Positions 15,920 through 21,701 of a stretch of DNA of 64,000 nt are shown piece by piece. The notes below the pieces were generated by a model, which saw nothing but the letters and a program-made list of their open reading frames with translations, made no database searches and was not told where the DNA came from. Each line of letters starts with the position of its first letter. Position 1 is the stretch's first letter. The stretch spans positions 2,108,001-2,172,000 of the forward strand of contig NZ_CP080376.1 in NCBI RefSeq assembly GCF_019443405.1. Reading direction: 5' to 3'. The translations under genes were made by a program, and so were the position numbers. This DNA is from Brevundimonas sp. PAMC22021. Lineage in GTDB: Bacteria; Pseudomonadota; Alphaproteobacteria; Caulobacterales; Caulobacteraceae.

Positions 15920-16210
15920 CTATTCGTCGCCCGAGGCGTTCAGCCGCTCGCGCAGTTCCTTGCCGCTCTTGAAGAAGGGCACGCATTTGGCCGGCACCTC
16001 GACCGTCTCGCCGGTGCGCGGATTCCGCCCCGCCCGCGCGGGACGCGACCGCACCGAAAAGGCGCCAAAGCCGCGCAGTTCCACCCGACCGCCTTCGGCC
16101 AGCGAGTCCGTCATCTTGCCCAGAACGATGTTGACCAACCGCTCCACCTCGCCGTGGGTCAGATGGGTGTTCTCGGCCGCCAGCTTTTCGATCAGCTCCG
16201 ACTTGATCAT
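15920..16210 (-). CDS. ihfB: Integration host factor subunit beta
   Basis: The 96-residue DNA-bending HU/IHF protein ends the aroA-cmk-rpsA-ihfB cluster. It begins [17 protein letters not shown] and carries the DNA-arm motif [27 protein letters not shown] in two blocks (about 60-86), with the proline that intercalates DNA. With IHF alpha it bends DNA sharply for transcription, recombination and flagellar promoters. A separate terminator lies between rpsA and this gene, so it probably also has its own promoter in 16211-16360. Confidence 0.95.
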
Positions 16211-16420: not shown

Positions 16421-18124
16421 TTACTCCTTGTTGCCGGCGTTCTTCAGCGCGGCGCCCAGGATGTCGCCCAGCGAGGCGCCCGAGTCCGACGACCCGAACT
16501 GTTCGATGGCTTCCTGTTCGTCCTTCATCTCCAGCGCCTTGATCGACACCGAGATGCGGCGCGAGGCCTTGTCCACGGCGGTGATCATCGCATCGACGCG
16601 GTCGCCGACGGCGAAGCGTTCCGGACGTTGCTCGTTGCGGTCACGCGACAGATCGGACTTGCGGACAAAGGCCGACACCGGCGCGTCGTCCTCACCGAAC
16701 TTGACCTCGATGCCGCCGGTCTCGATCGACGAGACGGTGACGGTTATCTGCTGGCCGCGACGATAGGTGTCGCCTTCGCCGATCGGATCGCCGCCCAGCT
16801 GCTTGATGCCCAGCGAGACGCGTTCCTTCTCGACGTCGACGTCCAGCACCTTCGCCTTGACGGTTTCGCCCTTGCGGTAACGCTGGATGGCTTCCTCGCC
16901 CGAGACGTTCCAGTCCAGGTCCGACAGGTGCACCATGCCGTCGATGTCGTTGTCCAGGCCGATGAACAGGCCGAACTCGGTGGCGTTCTTGACTTCGCCC
17001 TCGACGGTCGAGCCGATCGGGTGGTTGGCGACGAACGCATCCCACGGATTGTCCTGAGCCTGCTTCAGGCCCAGCGAGATGCGGCGCTTGGAGCTGTCGA
17101 CGTCCAGCACGACCACATCCACTTCCTGCGAGGTGGAGACGATCTTGCCCGGATGGACGTTCTTCTTGGTCCAGGACATTTCCGAGACGTGCACCAGGCC
17201 CTCGACACCGGCTTCCAGCTCCACAAAGGCGCCGTAGTCGGTGATGTTGGTGATGCGGCCCGTGTACTTGGCGCCGACCGGGTATTTGGCTTCCACGCCG
17301 TCCCAGGGGTCCGACTGCAGCTGCTTCATGCCGAGGCTGATGCGCTGGGTGTCCGGGTTGATCTTGACGATCTGCACCTTGACCGTGTCGCCGACGTTCA
17401 GGACCTGCGACGGGTGCGACACGCGCTTCCAGCTCATGTCGGTGACGTGCAGCAGGCCGTCGATGCCGCCCAGATCCACGAACGCGCCGTAGTCGGTGAT
17501 GTTCTTGACCACGCCTTCGCGGACTTCGCCCTCTTGCAGCTGGCCGACCAGCTCGGTGCGCTGTTCGGCGCGGGCTTCTTCCAGGATGGCGCGACGCGAC
17601 ACGACGATGTTGCCGCGCGGACGGTCCATCTTCAGGATGGCGAAGGGCTGTTCCTTGCCCATCAGCGGACCGACGTCGCGCACGGGACGGATGTCGACCT
17701 GCGAGCCCGGCAGGAAGGCCGAGGCGCCGCCCAGATCGACGGTGAAGCCGCCCTTGACGCGGCCGACGATGGCGCCGTTGACCGGCTGGCCTTCGGCGAA
17801 CACGCCTTCCAGACGGGTCCAGGCTTCCTCGCGGCGAGCCTTGTCGCGGCTGATGACCGCTTCACCCAGGGCGTTCTCGACGCGCTCGAGGTAGACTTCG
17901 ACGTTGTCGCCCAGCTTGGGCAGAACGGCGCCTTCGCCCTGGCCGAACTCGCGCATGGCGATGCGGCCTTCGGTCTTCAGGCCCACGTCGATGATGACGA
18001 TGTCCTTTTCGATGCCGACGACGCGGCCGTGGACGACCTGGCCTTCGCCGAGATCGCGGCCCTGCAGTTGTTCGTCGAGCAGCGCGGCGAAATCGTCGCG
18101 CGAGGGGGAGAGAGTGTCGGTCAT
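16421..18124 (-). CDS. rpsA: 30S ribosomal protein S1
   Basis: The 567-residue protein has six S1 (OB-fold) repeats; the clearest carry the signature YGAFVDLGGIDGLLHVTDMSW and its near-copies. S1 binds mRNA and delivers it to the 30S subunit. I start at ATG 18124 (MTDTLSPSRDDFAALLDEQL), which fits the conserved caulobacterial N-terminus; a 14-residue longer form from 18166 is possible. It follows cmk with a roughly 160-base gap that may hold its own leader or autoregulatory site, and it has its own terminator. Confidence 0.96.
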   Translation of the reverse strand: MTDTLSPSRDDFAALLDEQLQGRDLGEGQVVHGRVVGIEKDIVIIDVGLKTEGRIAMREFGQGEGAVLPKLGDNVEVYLERVENALGEAVISRDKARREEAWTRLEGVFAEGQPVNGAIVGRVKGGFTVDLGGASAFLPGSQVDIRPVRDVGPLMGKEQPFAILKMDRPRGNIVVSRRAILEEARAEQRTELVGQLQEGEVREGVVKNITDYGAFVDLGGIDGLLHVTDMSWKRVSHPSQVLNVGDTVKVQIVKINPDTQRISLGMKQLQSDPWDGVEAKYPVGAKYTGRITNITDYGAFVELEAGVEGLVHVSEMSWTKKNVHPGKIVSTSQEVDVVVLDVDSSKRRISLGLKQAQDNPWDAFVANHPIGSTVEGEVKNATEFGLFIGLDNDIDGMVHLSDLDWNVSGEEAIQRYRKGETVKAKVLDVDVEKERVSLGIKQLGGDPIGEGDTYRRGQQITVTVSSIETGGIEVKFGEDDAPVSAFVRKSDLSRDRNEQRPERFAVGDRVDAMITAVDKASRRISVSIKALEMKDEQEAIEQFGSSDSGASLGDILGAALKNAGNKE

Positions 18125-18287
18125 GTAGCTGTTGGAGCTTCCGAATGGGTTGCGGCGCGCGGCCATGCGGCCCCGCGCGAGGTGGACGGAAAGGATAGGC
18201 AGGTCGTCAGGATGCGAGCGCGACAGGATCGCTCAGAACGCCCGCGGAAAGTCTGAGGACCGGTGCGTTGGATTTGCCAGGTTTGGT

Positions 18288-18932
18288 CTAAAGACCGTGC
18301 CGGGCGCGCGCCGCCTCGACGATACGGCGGGCCGCATCGAAGGCGGCCTCTATACCCAAGTCGGTCGTGTCCAGCAAGGCCGCGTCGTGGGCCTGCACCA
18401 TGGGGGCCGCGCCCCGGCCGGCGTCGCGTTCGTCGCGCCTGCGGATGTCGGCCAGCATGTCCTCCAGCGCGATGGCGTCGCCGCGCGCCGTCAGCTGCTT
18501 CCAGCGCCGGCTCGCCCGCACCTCGGGCGTCGCGGTGACGAACAGCTTGGCCGTGGCGTCCGGCGCGATCACCGTGCCGATGTCGCGCCCGTCCAGAACG
18601 GCGCCGCCGGCTTGCGCGGCGAAGTCCTGTTGCAGCGTCAGCAGCGCCGCGCGCACGCCGGGGTGCCCCGCGACGCGGCTGGCCGCTTCCCCCGCCTCGC
18701 CGGTCGTCAGGCGAAGATCGTCCGACAGGGTGCGAGCGTCCAGCCCTCTCGCCGCCGCTTGCGCCGCCTCGGCGTCGTCCAGCGATCCGCCCGCCTCCAG
18801 CACCTTCAGCCCCACCGCGCGATAGAGCAGGCCGGTGTCCAGATGCGGCAGGCCGTATTCGCGCGCCAGCCGGCCCGCGATGGTCCCCTTGCCCGATGCA
18901 GCCGGGCCGTCGACGGCGATGACGAAACCCAT
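18288..18932 (-). CDS. cmk: Cytidylate kinase
   Basis: The 214-residue enzyme phosphorylates CMP and dCMP with ATP. The P-loop GPAASGKGT lies at residues 9-17, the CMP site includes LDTGLLYRAV and GRDIGT, and the lid region has RRRDERDAGR. The ATG overlaps the antitoxin stop codon (ATGA), so ribosomes finishing the antitoxin are placed to start cmk. The usual neighbour upstream, aroA, is separated from it by the toxin-antitoxin pair. Confidence 0.96.
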   Translation of the reverse strand: MGFVIAVDGPAASGKGTIAGRLAREYGLPHLDTGLLYRAVGLKVLEAGGSLDDAEAAQAAARGLDARTLSDDLRLTTGEAGEAASRVAGHPGVRAALLTLQQDFAAQAGGAVLDGRDIGTVIAPDATAKLFVTATPEVRASRRWKQLTARGDAIALEDMLADIRRRDERDAGRGAAPMVQAHDAALLDTTDLGIEAAFDAARRIVEAARARHGL

Positions 18933-19210
18933 CAGGCGGCGGATCTGACCGTTACCGGGGTAAGCCTAAGCCCAAGTCCGCCGATTACCCTGAGCAGCGT
19001 CGGCCATGCGGGCGCTGGTGCAGCCGGCATCGCCTCCGACAGCCCGGCCGCTTCCGTGACCGCCGTCAGGCCCTTGGCTCGCGCAATGACTATCAGGGCG
19101 TCCGCGATCTCGACCGGCTCATTGGAATCCAGCGCGTCCTGCAGGAACGCCTCCACCGCTTCATCAGAGTCCAGATATTCGGCGGCGTCGAAACGTCTCA
19201 GCTCAACCAT
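18932..19210 (-). CDS. Antitoxin of a RelE/HI1420-type addiction module
   Basis: A 92-residue protein like the HI1420 antidote family, which neutralises a RelE-fold toxin and represses its own promoter. It shows the typical opening (FDAAEYLDSDEAVEAFLQDAL), the middle EIADALIVIARAKGLTAVTEAAGLSE and the end TLLRVIGGLGLRLTP. The stretch between GLSE and TLLRV is short and rich in Ala/Pro (MPAAPAPAWP), whereas relatives normally carry the DNA-recognition helix with a Tyr-Lys-Ala-Leu type sequence there. DNA binding may be weakened. It overlaps the toxin by eight bases and cmk by four. Confidence 0.85.
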   Translation of the reverse strand: MVELRRFDAAEYLDSDEAVEAFLQDALDSNEPVEIADALIVIARAKGLTAVTEAAGLSEAMPAAPAPAWPTLLRVIGGLGLRLTPVTVRSAA

Positions 19211-19502
19211 GTTCGACCTCCCTGGCGATCCGCAAGGCCTGCGCGATATCCGCCCTCTGGCTTGCCTTGTCGCCGCCGCACAGCATCACGATCAGCTGCC
19301 CGCCACGCTGAATGAAGTATAGCCGATATCCGGGGCCGTAGTCGATGCGCAGCTCCCGCACTCCGGCCTCGATGAATTTGGCGTCACCGACCAAGCCTCG
19401 CTCAAGCCTGTTCAGGCGACGAAGGATTCGCGCTTTGGCCTGGATGTCTCTGAGCCGATGAAGCCATTCCACGAACTCCGGATGCTGAAGAACCTCAAAC
19501 AT
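19203..19502 (-). CDS. RelE/ParE-superfamily toxin (HI1419/Gp49-like)
   Basis: The 99-residue protein is a RelE-fold toxin of the Gp49/HI1419 group, which cleaves mRNA on the ribosome. Diagnostic features are ARILRRLNRLERG, the VRELRIDYGPGYRLYFIQRG core with conserved Arg and Tyr residues, and the end CGGDKASQRADIAQALRIA. The order is toxin first, antitoxin second, as in HigBA-type pairs. It starts 21 bases after the aroA stop, so the pair is probably co-transcribed with aroA and cmk. Confidence 0.88.
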   Translation of the reverse strand: MFEVLQHPEFVEWLHRLRDIQAKARILRRLNRLERGLVGDAKFIEAGVRELRIDYGPGYRLYFIQRGGQLIVMLCGGDKASQRADIAQALRIAREVEHG

Positions 19503-19523
19503 CAGCGGTCGTCGATCGATCGC

Positions 19524-20831
19524 TCATGCCAGATCGCCGCCCAGCCCACGCATCATCTCGGCAAAGCCCGGAAAACTGGTGGCGATCATGCCCGGATCGT
19601 CGACGGACACCGGCGCATCCGCCGCCAGACCCAGCACCAGGTGGCTCATGGCGATGCGGTGGTCGTGGGCGGTGCGGACGGTCGCGCCGCCCTTCACCTG
19701 TCCGCCGGTGACGATGAAGCCCTCCGGCTCCTCCTCCACCATCACGCCGCAGGCGCGCAGACCCGCGACCATCAGGGCGATGCGGTCGCTTTCCTTGACA
19801 CGCATCTCGCCCACGCCGCGCATCACCGTCTGACCGTCGGCAAAGGCGGCGGTGGCGGCCAGGATCGGGTATTCGTCGATCATGGAGGCGGCGCGCGCCT
19901 CGGGCACGACCACGCCCTTCAGCGCGGAATGCCGCGCGGTGACATCGCCGACCTCTTCGCCGCCGGCCTCGCGCCGGTCCGAGATCGTCAGGTCCGCGCC
20001 CATCTCGATCCAGGTGTCGAACAGGCCGGTGCGCAACGGGTTCAGCATCACCCCTTCGACCGTCACCTCCGAACCCGGCGTGATCAGCCCCGCCGCCAGC
20101 GGAAAGGCGGCCGAGGACGGATCGCCCGGCACGGCCACGGCCGTTCCCCGCAGCGCCTGCCCTCCGCGCAGCGTGACGCGCCAACCCTGGCCGACCGGCT
20201 CCACCCCCACCTCGGCGCCGAAGGCGCGCAGCATCCGCTCGGTGTGATCGCGGCTCTTCTCCGGCTCCAGCACCGTCGTCACGCCGTCGGCGTTCAGCCC
20301 GGCCAGCAGGATCGCCGACTTGACCTGGGCCGAGGCCACCGCCTGCTCGTGCTCGATGGCGGTCAGCGCGCCGCCGGTCAGCGCCACCGGCAGCCGGTCC
20401 TCGTTGGTCAGCCAGCCGAAGCGCGCGCCCATGCGCCGAAGCGGATCCGTCACTCGCTTCATCGGCCGCTTGCGCAGGCTCGCATCGCCGTCGAACGTCG
20501 CGGTCAGGCCGTAGCCGGCCGCCGCGCCCATCAGCAGGCGCACGCCGGTGCCGGCGTTGCCGCAGTCGATCACGTCCAGCGGCGTCCTGAACCCGCCCCG
20601 CCCCGTCACCCGCCACCGTCCCGGGCCCAGCCGTTCGACGCCCGCGCCAAAGGCCTGCACTGCTCTTGCGGTGGCCAGGATGTCGTCGCCTTCCAGCAGA
20701 CCCTCGATCTCGGTGACGCCGTCGGCCATGCCGCCCAGGATCAATGCGCGGTGCGAGATCGACTTGTCGCCCGGCGCGCGCACCCGGCCGCTGAGGGCGG
20801 AGGAACGGCGCGCGGTGAGTTGGGAGATCAT
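19524..20831 (-). CDS. aroA: 3-phosphoshikimate 1-carboxyvinyltransferase (EPSP synthase)
   Basis: This 435-residue enzyme joins shikimate-3-phosphate and phosphoenolpyruvate in the shikimate pathway. It shows [10 protein letters not shown] (K23), [26 protein letters not shown] and [10 protein letters not shown], all active-site segments. The LMGAAAGYG sequence follows the GNAGTG loop; the glycine pattern resembles the class II, glyphosate-tolerant alphaproteobacterial enzymes, although I did not verify this. It begins the operon aroA-toxin-antitoxin-cmk-rpsA-ihfB. Confidence 0.96.
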
Positions 20832-20958
20832 GGCGGGCCCGCATTAAAGCTGGTCATCAGGGGATCGGCCGGGCGGGCGGCGCGAAGATCGCTTTTGACA
20901 GCGGCCCCCGGGGGTGGCAAGGGACCGCCCCGAATTCAACCTGTTGAAAGTATCCGCC

Positions 20959-21414
20959 GTGGCCAATCCCGAACTGGGCGCCAAGCAGGTCTGCCCGAAC
21001 TGTCAGGCAAAGTTCTACGACCTGAACCGCCGCCCCGCCCACTGCCCGAAATGCTCCACCGACTTTGATCCGGAAGAGGCGCTGAAGCTGCGCAGCCGTC
21101 GGACCCGCCCGGGCTATCCGGCTGATGACGAGGCCGAAGATCAGGTCGTCGACAAGAAGGCCGAGGACGAGGACGAGGACGAGACGGTCCGCGCCCCCGA
21201 GATCGACGAGGAAGGCCATGAGCCGATCCTGACGCCCGACGACGACGAGGACACGCCGACCGACGCATCGGAAGAACCCGGCATGGGCGCGACCGACGGC
21301 GACGACGACGACGTCCTGGCCGACGAAGACGATGACTCGGTGCCCTTCATCGAGGACGAGGACGACGACTCCTTCGACGACGAGATCGCCAAGCCGTCCA
21401 AGGACGACGACTGA
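20959..21414 (+). CDS. FYDLN zinc-ribbon acidic protein (TIGR02300 type)
   Basis: A 151-residue protein of the TIGR02300 group of Alphaproteobacteria. The N-terminus holds a zinc ribbon with two CPxC pairs, CPNCQAKFYDLNRRPAHCPKC, containing the FYDLN signature. The rest is a highly acidic tail of Asp/Glu runs, probably disordered. The function is unknown. I start at GTG 20959 (ANPELGAKQVCPNC), which has GAAAG upstream at eight bases; a longer frame from 20914 lacks family support. Confidence 0.82.
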   Translation: MANPELGAKQVCPNCQAKFYDLNRRPAHCPKCSTDFDPEEALKLRSRRTRPGYPADDEAEDQVVDKKAEDEDEDETVRAPEIDEEGHEPILTPDDDEDTPTDASEEPGMGATDGDDDDVLADEDDDSVPFIEDEDDDSFDDEIAKPSKDDD

Positions 21415-21625: not shown

Positions 21626-21701
21626 GGGGCTATAGCTCAGTTGGTAGAGCGCTTGAATGGCATTCAAGAGGTCAGCGGTTCGACTCCGCTTAGCTCCACC
21701 A
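21626..21701 (+). tRNA. tRNA-Ala (anticodon GGC)
   Basis: The 76-base gene gives a full cloverleaf: acceptor GGGGCTA with TAGCTCC (one G-T pair), D-arm containing AGCTCAGTTGGTAGAGC, anticodon stem CTTGA/TCAAG with loop ATGGCAT (anticodon GGC), T-arm GCGG-TTCGACT-CCGC and encoded CCA. It is followed by a strong terminator. Confidence 0.97.

Follow-up and report, generated by a model that had tools for sequence, protein, structure and literature searches.

PaaA2, an antitoxin of the PaaR-PaaA-ParE systems, is without a DNA-binding part of its own. The regulator PaaR2 is encoded there by a separate gene (PMC8630535, in excerpt). Antitoxins of type II systems are commonly portrayed as repressors of their own genes that act by binding DNA (PMC7167474, in excerpt). 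In CrlTA from Pseudomonas aeruginosa, the RelE-like toxin, which cleaves mRNA, is encoded first, the two genes overlap by 8 nt, and the antitoxin CrlA has an HTH motif (excerpt of PMC9127804); HI1419 or HI1420 is named in PMC3877243. The pair analyzed here, from Brevundimonas sp. PAMC22021, resembles the HI1419/HI1420 modules (TIGR02683/TIGR02684) in that both profile cut-offs are passed, the toxin lies upstream and the genes overlap. It differs from them in that its antitoxin lacks the recognition helix, which each of the 109 pairs examined outside the genus possesses, and in that it lies inside an essential operon without a TATA-centered palindrome. Because neither a full HTH nor an operator of its own was found, the pair is considered a variant and not a standard member. 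With CrlTA, as excerpted, it shares the toxin-first order and the 8-nt overlap, but CrlA has the HTH that the window antitoxin lacks. With PaaR-PaaA-ParE, it shares an antitoxin devoid of a DNA-binding part, but there is no third gene at the locus. Toxins of the HigBA/RelBE type II systems are 5–22% identical to that of the window (among the matches listed), and the antitoxin gave weak matches. On the location itself, between aroA and cmk, nothing was found among the literature titles listed.

The window, i.e. the whole stretch of 64,000 nucleotides that was analyzed, contains the following features of the operon, all on the minus strand:

19524–20831, minus: aroA, upstream edge of the slot (EPSP synthase; PF00275 and TIGR01356 above cut-off)
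18933–19523, minus: cargo slot, from the aroA stop to the cmk start (591 nt in this genome)
19203–19502, minus: toxin of RelE/HigB fold, HI1419 type, 99 aa, without a computed Shine-Dalgarno site
18932–19210, minus: HI1420-type antitoxin, 92 aa, without recognition helix (TIGR02684 at 62.4 bits, alignments, model)
19001–19039, minus: Pro/Ala-rich stretch in place of the DNA-recognition helix, antitoxin residues 58–70 (alignment gap, coil in the model)
19217–19223, minus: strong Shine-Dalgarno-like AGGGAGG of the antitoxin (−9.5 kcal/mol against CCUCCU)
18930–18934, minus: TGATG, antitoxin stop and cmk start overlapping by one base
19316–19345, minus: promoter-like site within the toxin gene, TCGACT-18-TATACT, 9/12 matches (consensus scan)
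18288–18932, minus: cmk, downstream edge of the slot (PF02224 and TIGR00017 above cut-off)
16421–18166, minus: rpsA, ribosomal protein S1 (S1 domains, PF00575)
15920–16210, minus: ihfB-type DNA-binding protein (PF00216)

An earlier note on this DNA had placed a RelE-type toxin and an HI1420-type antitoxin between aroA and cmk on the same strand, and profile matches above the cut-offs bear this out. The toxin starts 21 nt past the aroA stop and overlaps the antitoxin gene by 8 nt (ATGGTTGA), both as the note had read them; the junction of antitoxin stop and cmk start, given there as ATGA, is actually TGATG, with one shared base and not four. On the operon strand, toxin and antitoxin are the only frames of at least 75 codons in the slot, the G+C content of which (62.9%, compared with 68.7% for the window) is within the lowest 3% of 591-nt windows. 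No integrase frame was found in the slot. A direct repeat of 15 nt (87%) connects cmk (18902–18916) with aroA (19592–19606), and an inverted pair of 26 nt (73%) has one arm at the slot edge; such short two-copy matches often arise by chance. In the operon region, a tRNA was the sole Rfam match. A zinc-ribbon-like acidic protein encoded at 20914–21414 on the plus strand, which we take to resemble the FYDLN family, adjoins tRNA-Ala (21626–21701).

The toxin matched TIGR02683 with 121.9 bits (cut-off 62.85), has the RelE-like α/β arrangement of the RelE/HigB fold and agrees with all 18 columns that are invariant among 16 relatives. Searching the PDB by sequence yielded no convincing relative, PADLOC gave one toxin match (E = 0.0074), and a second toxin copy was not found in the 2.9-Mb genome to which the window belongs. 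Of 26 TIGR02683 toxins above cut-off in 131 genomes of the genus, 16 sit at the aroA-cmk junction, which indicates that their placement is more than chance.

The antitoxin exceeded the TIGR02684 cut-off (62.4 versus 53.7 bits) and matched Pfam dnstrm_HI1420 with 50.2 bits. Its recognition-helix region had been described as shortened (MPAAPAPAWP); in the alignment with 16 HTH-bearing relatives, this appears as a 5-residue gap plus Pro/Ala-rich sequence, and the same loss is common to the window genome (G000) and G106. In the AlphaFold2 model (mean pLDDT 81.3), helices span residues 9–12, 16–29, 32–46, 49–54 and 69–78, and residues 55–68, where the recognition helix would be expected, form coil. 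Thus, by both alignment and model, the antitoxin has no complete HTH. Structure matches, which included HipB chains, were weak (best Foldseek E = 3.6), and a plasmid search with the antitoxin gave 27 records, none with a query coverage of at least 80%. The antitoxins of G000 and G106 share 77% identity; the corresponding values are 77% for AroA, 78% for Cmk and 53% for the toxin. Antitoxin differences per codon position amount to 0.16, 0.11 and 0.50. Judging by these patterns, the shortened antitoxin is apparently kept by selection and is as conserved as AroA and Cmk.

Whether the pair interrupts an otherwise conserved gene order was assessed by searching 131 genomes of the genus for toxin, cmk and aroA. 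The aroA-cmk gap was measurable in 121; of the other 10, two (G050 and G087) have the genes apart, and eight gave no match to one or both genes. The junction was empty (≤67 nt) in 52 of the 121 genomes, with a gap below 60 nt in 51 and an estimated 67 nt in one, which supports the former reading of the pair as an insertion. In the remaining 69, it was filled with 265–1,307 nt (starts and stops read from the sequence). The refutation by an ancient fixture in all relatives, named in the earlier note, does not apply cleanly: the pair is present at this site in 16 of the 121 genomes, not in all. As a control, the junction from cmk to codon 16 of rpsA was used; in 117 of the 125 genomes with an rpsA match, it measured 145–249 nt and carried no insertion of slot size. 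Of 110 genomes from other genera of the family, 68 gave measurable gaps among the matches listed, three of them at least 200 nt and the largest 271 nt; two had the genes apart, and in the others a match was lacking, incomplete or weak, or the two genes were on separate contigs. No toxin match of the HI1419 family was found beside the cmk match in these non-genus genomes. Since the control junction is uninterrupted and such gaps are rare outside the genus, the slot is, in this sample, a property of the genus and of the junction. The aroA-cmk junction of Brevundimonas thus looks like a cargo slot inside an essential operon.

In each of the 69 filled slots, one or more frames have a homologue in another slot. 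Nine cargo families recur, namely seven small-protein families, one RidA-like family and the HI1419/HI1420 pair (16 genomes), and twelve genomes hold at least two of them. The seven families (0, 3, 4, 5, 7, 8 and 10) have median lengths of 84–133 residues and mostly one or two predicted membrane segments; the small membrane-protein cargo was seen at loci L030–L061, L064–L066, L069–L070, L080–L088, L090–L095 and L098. Family 10 corresponds to DUF6713; for the other membrane families, the representatives tested (two from family 0, a single one from each of the rest) had no Pfam match above cut-off. Family 0 (32 genomes) may mix families, because the single-linkage cluster took in some other-frame ORFs; two further clusters (9 and 11) were taken for other-frame artefacts and not counted as cargo. 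The RidA-like protein (Pfam Ribonuc_L-PSP, 91.3 bits) occurs in five genomes (L062, L063, L091, L096 and L098), in two of which the TA pair follows it. Cargo of a recurring family starts between −8 and +25 nt from the aroA stop in 63 of the 69 slots, overlapping the stop in 47, and ends at most 10 nt from the cmk start in 38, with no such end in 31. In 53 of the 69, there is cargo without toxin homology only.

As slot cargo, the pair exists in two states. Thirteen genomes encode an antitoxin with the full HTH, preceded by a conserved start, TTGAC-N5-GTCGCC[TC][AG]T[AG]GA[CG]GAC, which is retained despite toxin differences of up to about 40%. In 12 of the 13, a promoter-like consensus match TTGAC[AGT]-17-GAC[AG][AG]T (8–10 of 12 positions) lies at the gene/toxin junction; the exception, G114, reads GACAGC. 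The scan itself took in 12 of the 13 pairs, and G027 was read separately from the sequence. A palindrome, GTCGCCTATAGACGAC, lies inside the spacer of this promoter-like pair. TTGAC itself includes the TGA that ends the upstream frame (L071–L079 and L095–L098); this frame is the RidA-like gene in G100 and G072 and otherwise aroA. TATAGA had been considered as a −10 element, with the promoter lost in the 13 pairs for want of a −35 element at the right distance; this was dropped when the TTGAC-17 pair was found. In the second state, represented by G000, G106 and G082, palindrome, promoter-like start and recognition helix are all absent. The 13 HTH slot toxins cluster in the toxin tree (96/83), and the three helix-less slot toxins are not resolved in it.

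How often the slot changes its content was estimated for the 121 genomes on a quick tree computed from their flanks (the end of aroA and the start of cmk). The slot labels change 42 times (minimum possible 8), compared with a shuffled mean of 61.5, and this clustering means that inheritance is present as well. The filled/empty state changes 23 times and TA presence nine times, 17 and seven of these changes being forced by well-supported branches; the count is probably low, as the flanks may travel with the cargo. In the slot of G067 (L095, 278–352), an aroA end is duplicated over 76 nt between the first cargo and the TA pair, with 93% identity to the aroA end of G023, and this duplicate is read as a putative scar of recombination through aroA. 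The close relatives G028 (L074) and G023 (L072) are 95% identical at the end of AroA and 97% at the start of Cmk, but their toxins merely 59%; nucleotide identity drops over the toxin and the start of the antitoxin and then returns to above 0.9. From this profile, the toxin and the N-terminal half of the antitoxin appear to have been exchanged together. The best explanation for these patterns would be gain, loss and exchange of slot genes that proceed, at least in part, through recombination in the genes on either side.

To see how general the loss of the helix is, toxin loci were collected by genus, family and class searches plus a contig scan. The 155 toxin matches were reduced to 135, each with a recognized antitoxin, by dropping weak matches (E above 1e-33) and L306, a duplicate of G106. 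The recognition helix was called on an HMM alignment, where six helix-less antitoxins are evident from gaps and two (G082 and G091) were assigned by eye, their columns being filled with unlike sequence; a preceding call by regular expression, which scored G000 as HTH via other frames and missed several true HTH, was rejected. The helix is missing in 8 of 26 pairs of the genus and in none of the 109 others. Besides the three slot pairs (G000, G106 and G082), the eight comprise two starting at the stop of thrS (G005, L116; G079, L125) and three others. Of these, the pair of G095 follows a DUF885 gene, that of G091 follows a gene whose product has an MmeI-type recognition domain, and that of G066 (L107, 991–1988) is located 114 nt after rplL, with a terminator-like hairpin in between, as judged by eye. 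The identification of thrS is based on the threonyl-tRNA synthetase domains found by Pfam in G079 and on resemblance in G005. In G099 (L127), the thrS-linked toxin is broken, which indicates that such pairs can decay.

For the embedding of these pairs, toxins with identical last 60 residues or with less than 650 nt upstream were removed, leaving 129, and a pair was considered tight when it starts at most 25 nt from where an upstream frame of 200 or more codons ends. This applies to 7 of 8 helix-less pairs, compared with 11 of 109 HTH pairs outside the slot (Fisher p = 4.7e-6, weakened by kinship) or with 21 of 121 when the HTH slot pairs are included (p = 8e-5, likewise weakened). Within the genus but outside the slot, the values are 4 of 5 and 1 of 5 (p = 0.21). 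This stricter test was the second one tried: a cruder one, which relied on the unreliable HTH calls and on a more permissive frame length (at least 120 codons), had shown no difference (9 of 24 versus 46 of 109, p = 0.82; genus only, p = 0.49; genus outside the slot, p = 1.0). The HTH slot pairs are equally tight (10 of 12), so that capture is not sufficient for the loss of the helix. A palindrome was present in none of the 8 helix-less pairs but in 59 of the 121 HTH pairs (p = 0.0076, again weakened by kinship; about 3.5 expected by shuffling). It is TATA-centered in 46 of 104 non-genus pairs, and this form is absent at the window pair. As the scan finds a palindrome in merely 59 of 121 HTH pairs, its absence alone weighs little, and relatedness among the eight weakens all p-values on helix loss. 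We tentatively propose, at somewhat less than even chances, that TA pairs captured behind essential genes of Brevundimonas (aroA-cmk, thrS) can shed both the recognition helix of the antitoxin and the operator, so that a self-regulating module would become a hard-wired monitor of essential-operon expression, and that, within the slot, the toxin and the N-terminal half of the antitoxin would swap as a unit with the operator and the HTH half remaining fixed.

How the window pair might be expressed was deduced from its signals. The computed Shine-Dalgarno energies are −9.5 kcal/mol for the antitoxin, 0.3 for the toxin, −1.3 for cmk, −2.3 for aroA, −4.9 for rpsA and −5.7 for ihfB, that of the antitoxin being the strongest of the six operon starts. 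The weak site of cmk is not special to filled slots, since it is also weak at empty ones (median −3.3 in 48 of 51 empty loci and −3.5 in 62 of 70 loci of the filled set). No terminator-like site was found on the minus strand between aroA and cmk, which makes a single aroA-cmk transcript the simplest reading, and neither a promoter-like site nor a TATA-centered palindrome was found before the toxin. The earlier note had weighed a promoter and terminator isolating the pair from cmk; no such combination was found, although the toxin gene does contain one promoter-like site. By shuffling of the 5.8-kb region, 0.5 such sites are expected, and none scored in G106. Because of this site, expression of the antitoxin and cmk may be partly independent of the aroA transcript; for TA systems of reverse order, additional promoters of the antitoxin within the toxin gene are known (PMC7167474, in excerpt). 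With helix and palindrome gone, the pair can probably not repress itself through DNA in the usual way.

Taken at face value, these signals suggest the following course of events. The pair would be carried on the aroA transcript, and the toxin, having no ribosome site of its own, would be fed by ribosomes that end aroA. The antitoxin would be made in excess through the strongest ribosome site of the operon, and ribosomes ending it might restart at TGATG to produce Cmk; such coupling of cmk to antitoxin translation is plausible from the overlap. With autorepression gone, the pair would work as a switch coupled to expression of the operon. The likely trigger would be a stop in the synthesis of the transcript, upon which the antitoxin would decay, the RelE-like toxin would be freed and translation would be arrested. 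On balance, we consider it somewhat probable that an HI1419/HI1420 pair was captured by an essential operon, stripped of its self-regulation and is run on the aroA transcript, in a slot for small-gene cargo and with a predicted role as a switch.

The same observations can be accounted for in other ways. The pair could be kept because it ties control of the toxin to the supply of CMP kinase and S1, a dedicated link of the kind proposed before. The TGATG overlap and the weak ribosome site of cmk would fit this, as would the 13 relatives in which a palindrome and a promoter-like start are retained directly ahead of toxin, antitoxin and cmk; yet the junction is empty in 52 of 121 genomes and holds other cargo in 53, and DNA-binding feedback is unlikely in the window since palindrome and recognition helix are missing. 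For the window pair, we regard such domestication as very doubtful, and the former proposal is not supported here: the junction takes unrelated cargo, the cargo changes often, and palindrome and helix are lost. A link to CMP kinase and S1 is the better guess for the 13 relatives that have a palindrome, a promoter-like start and an HTH upstream of cmk.

That the pair was brought in by recombination and is now decaying, the helix having gone first and the toxin being idle, would agree with the broken thrS-linked toxin of G099, the frequent gain and loss of cargo and a toxin that diverges faster than its neighbors. However, the frames are intact, the toxin retains its fold and invariant residues, and the 5-residue loss is shared by G000 and G106 in an antitoxin otherwise as conserved as AroA and Cmk, with third-position changes far exceeding those at second positions (0.50 versus 0.11); decay is therefore considered improbable. 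The pair might also persist without benefit to the host, simply because a site in an essential operon can be neither silenced nor cleanly deleted. Such selfish anchoring gains from the concentration of 16 of the 26 HI1419-family toxins of the genus at this junction, with others behind thrS, and from the nine changes of TA presence on the tree, but 53 of 69 filled slots have no toxin homology, which means that the site attracts other genes, too; we consider it rather unlikely, if less so than decay.

Natural pairs that drop autorepression at captured sites inside or behind essential genes are a testable case of the wiring of TA systems into the host. The slot, filled in over half of the genus genomes measured, would be a simple place to study how bacteria cope with genes inserted between essential ones, and how expression of an operon is maintained while its cargo changes. 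Capture behind essential genes, together with the loss of self-regulation, is itself testable and, if general, would be unexpected.
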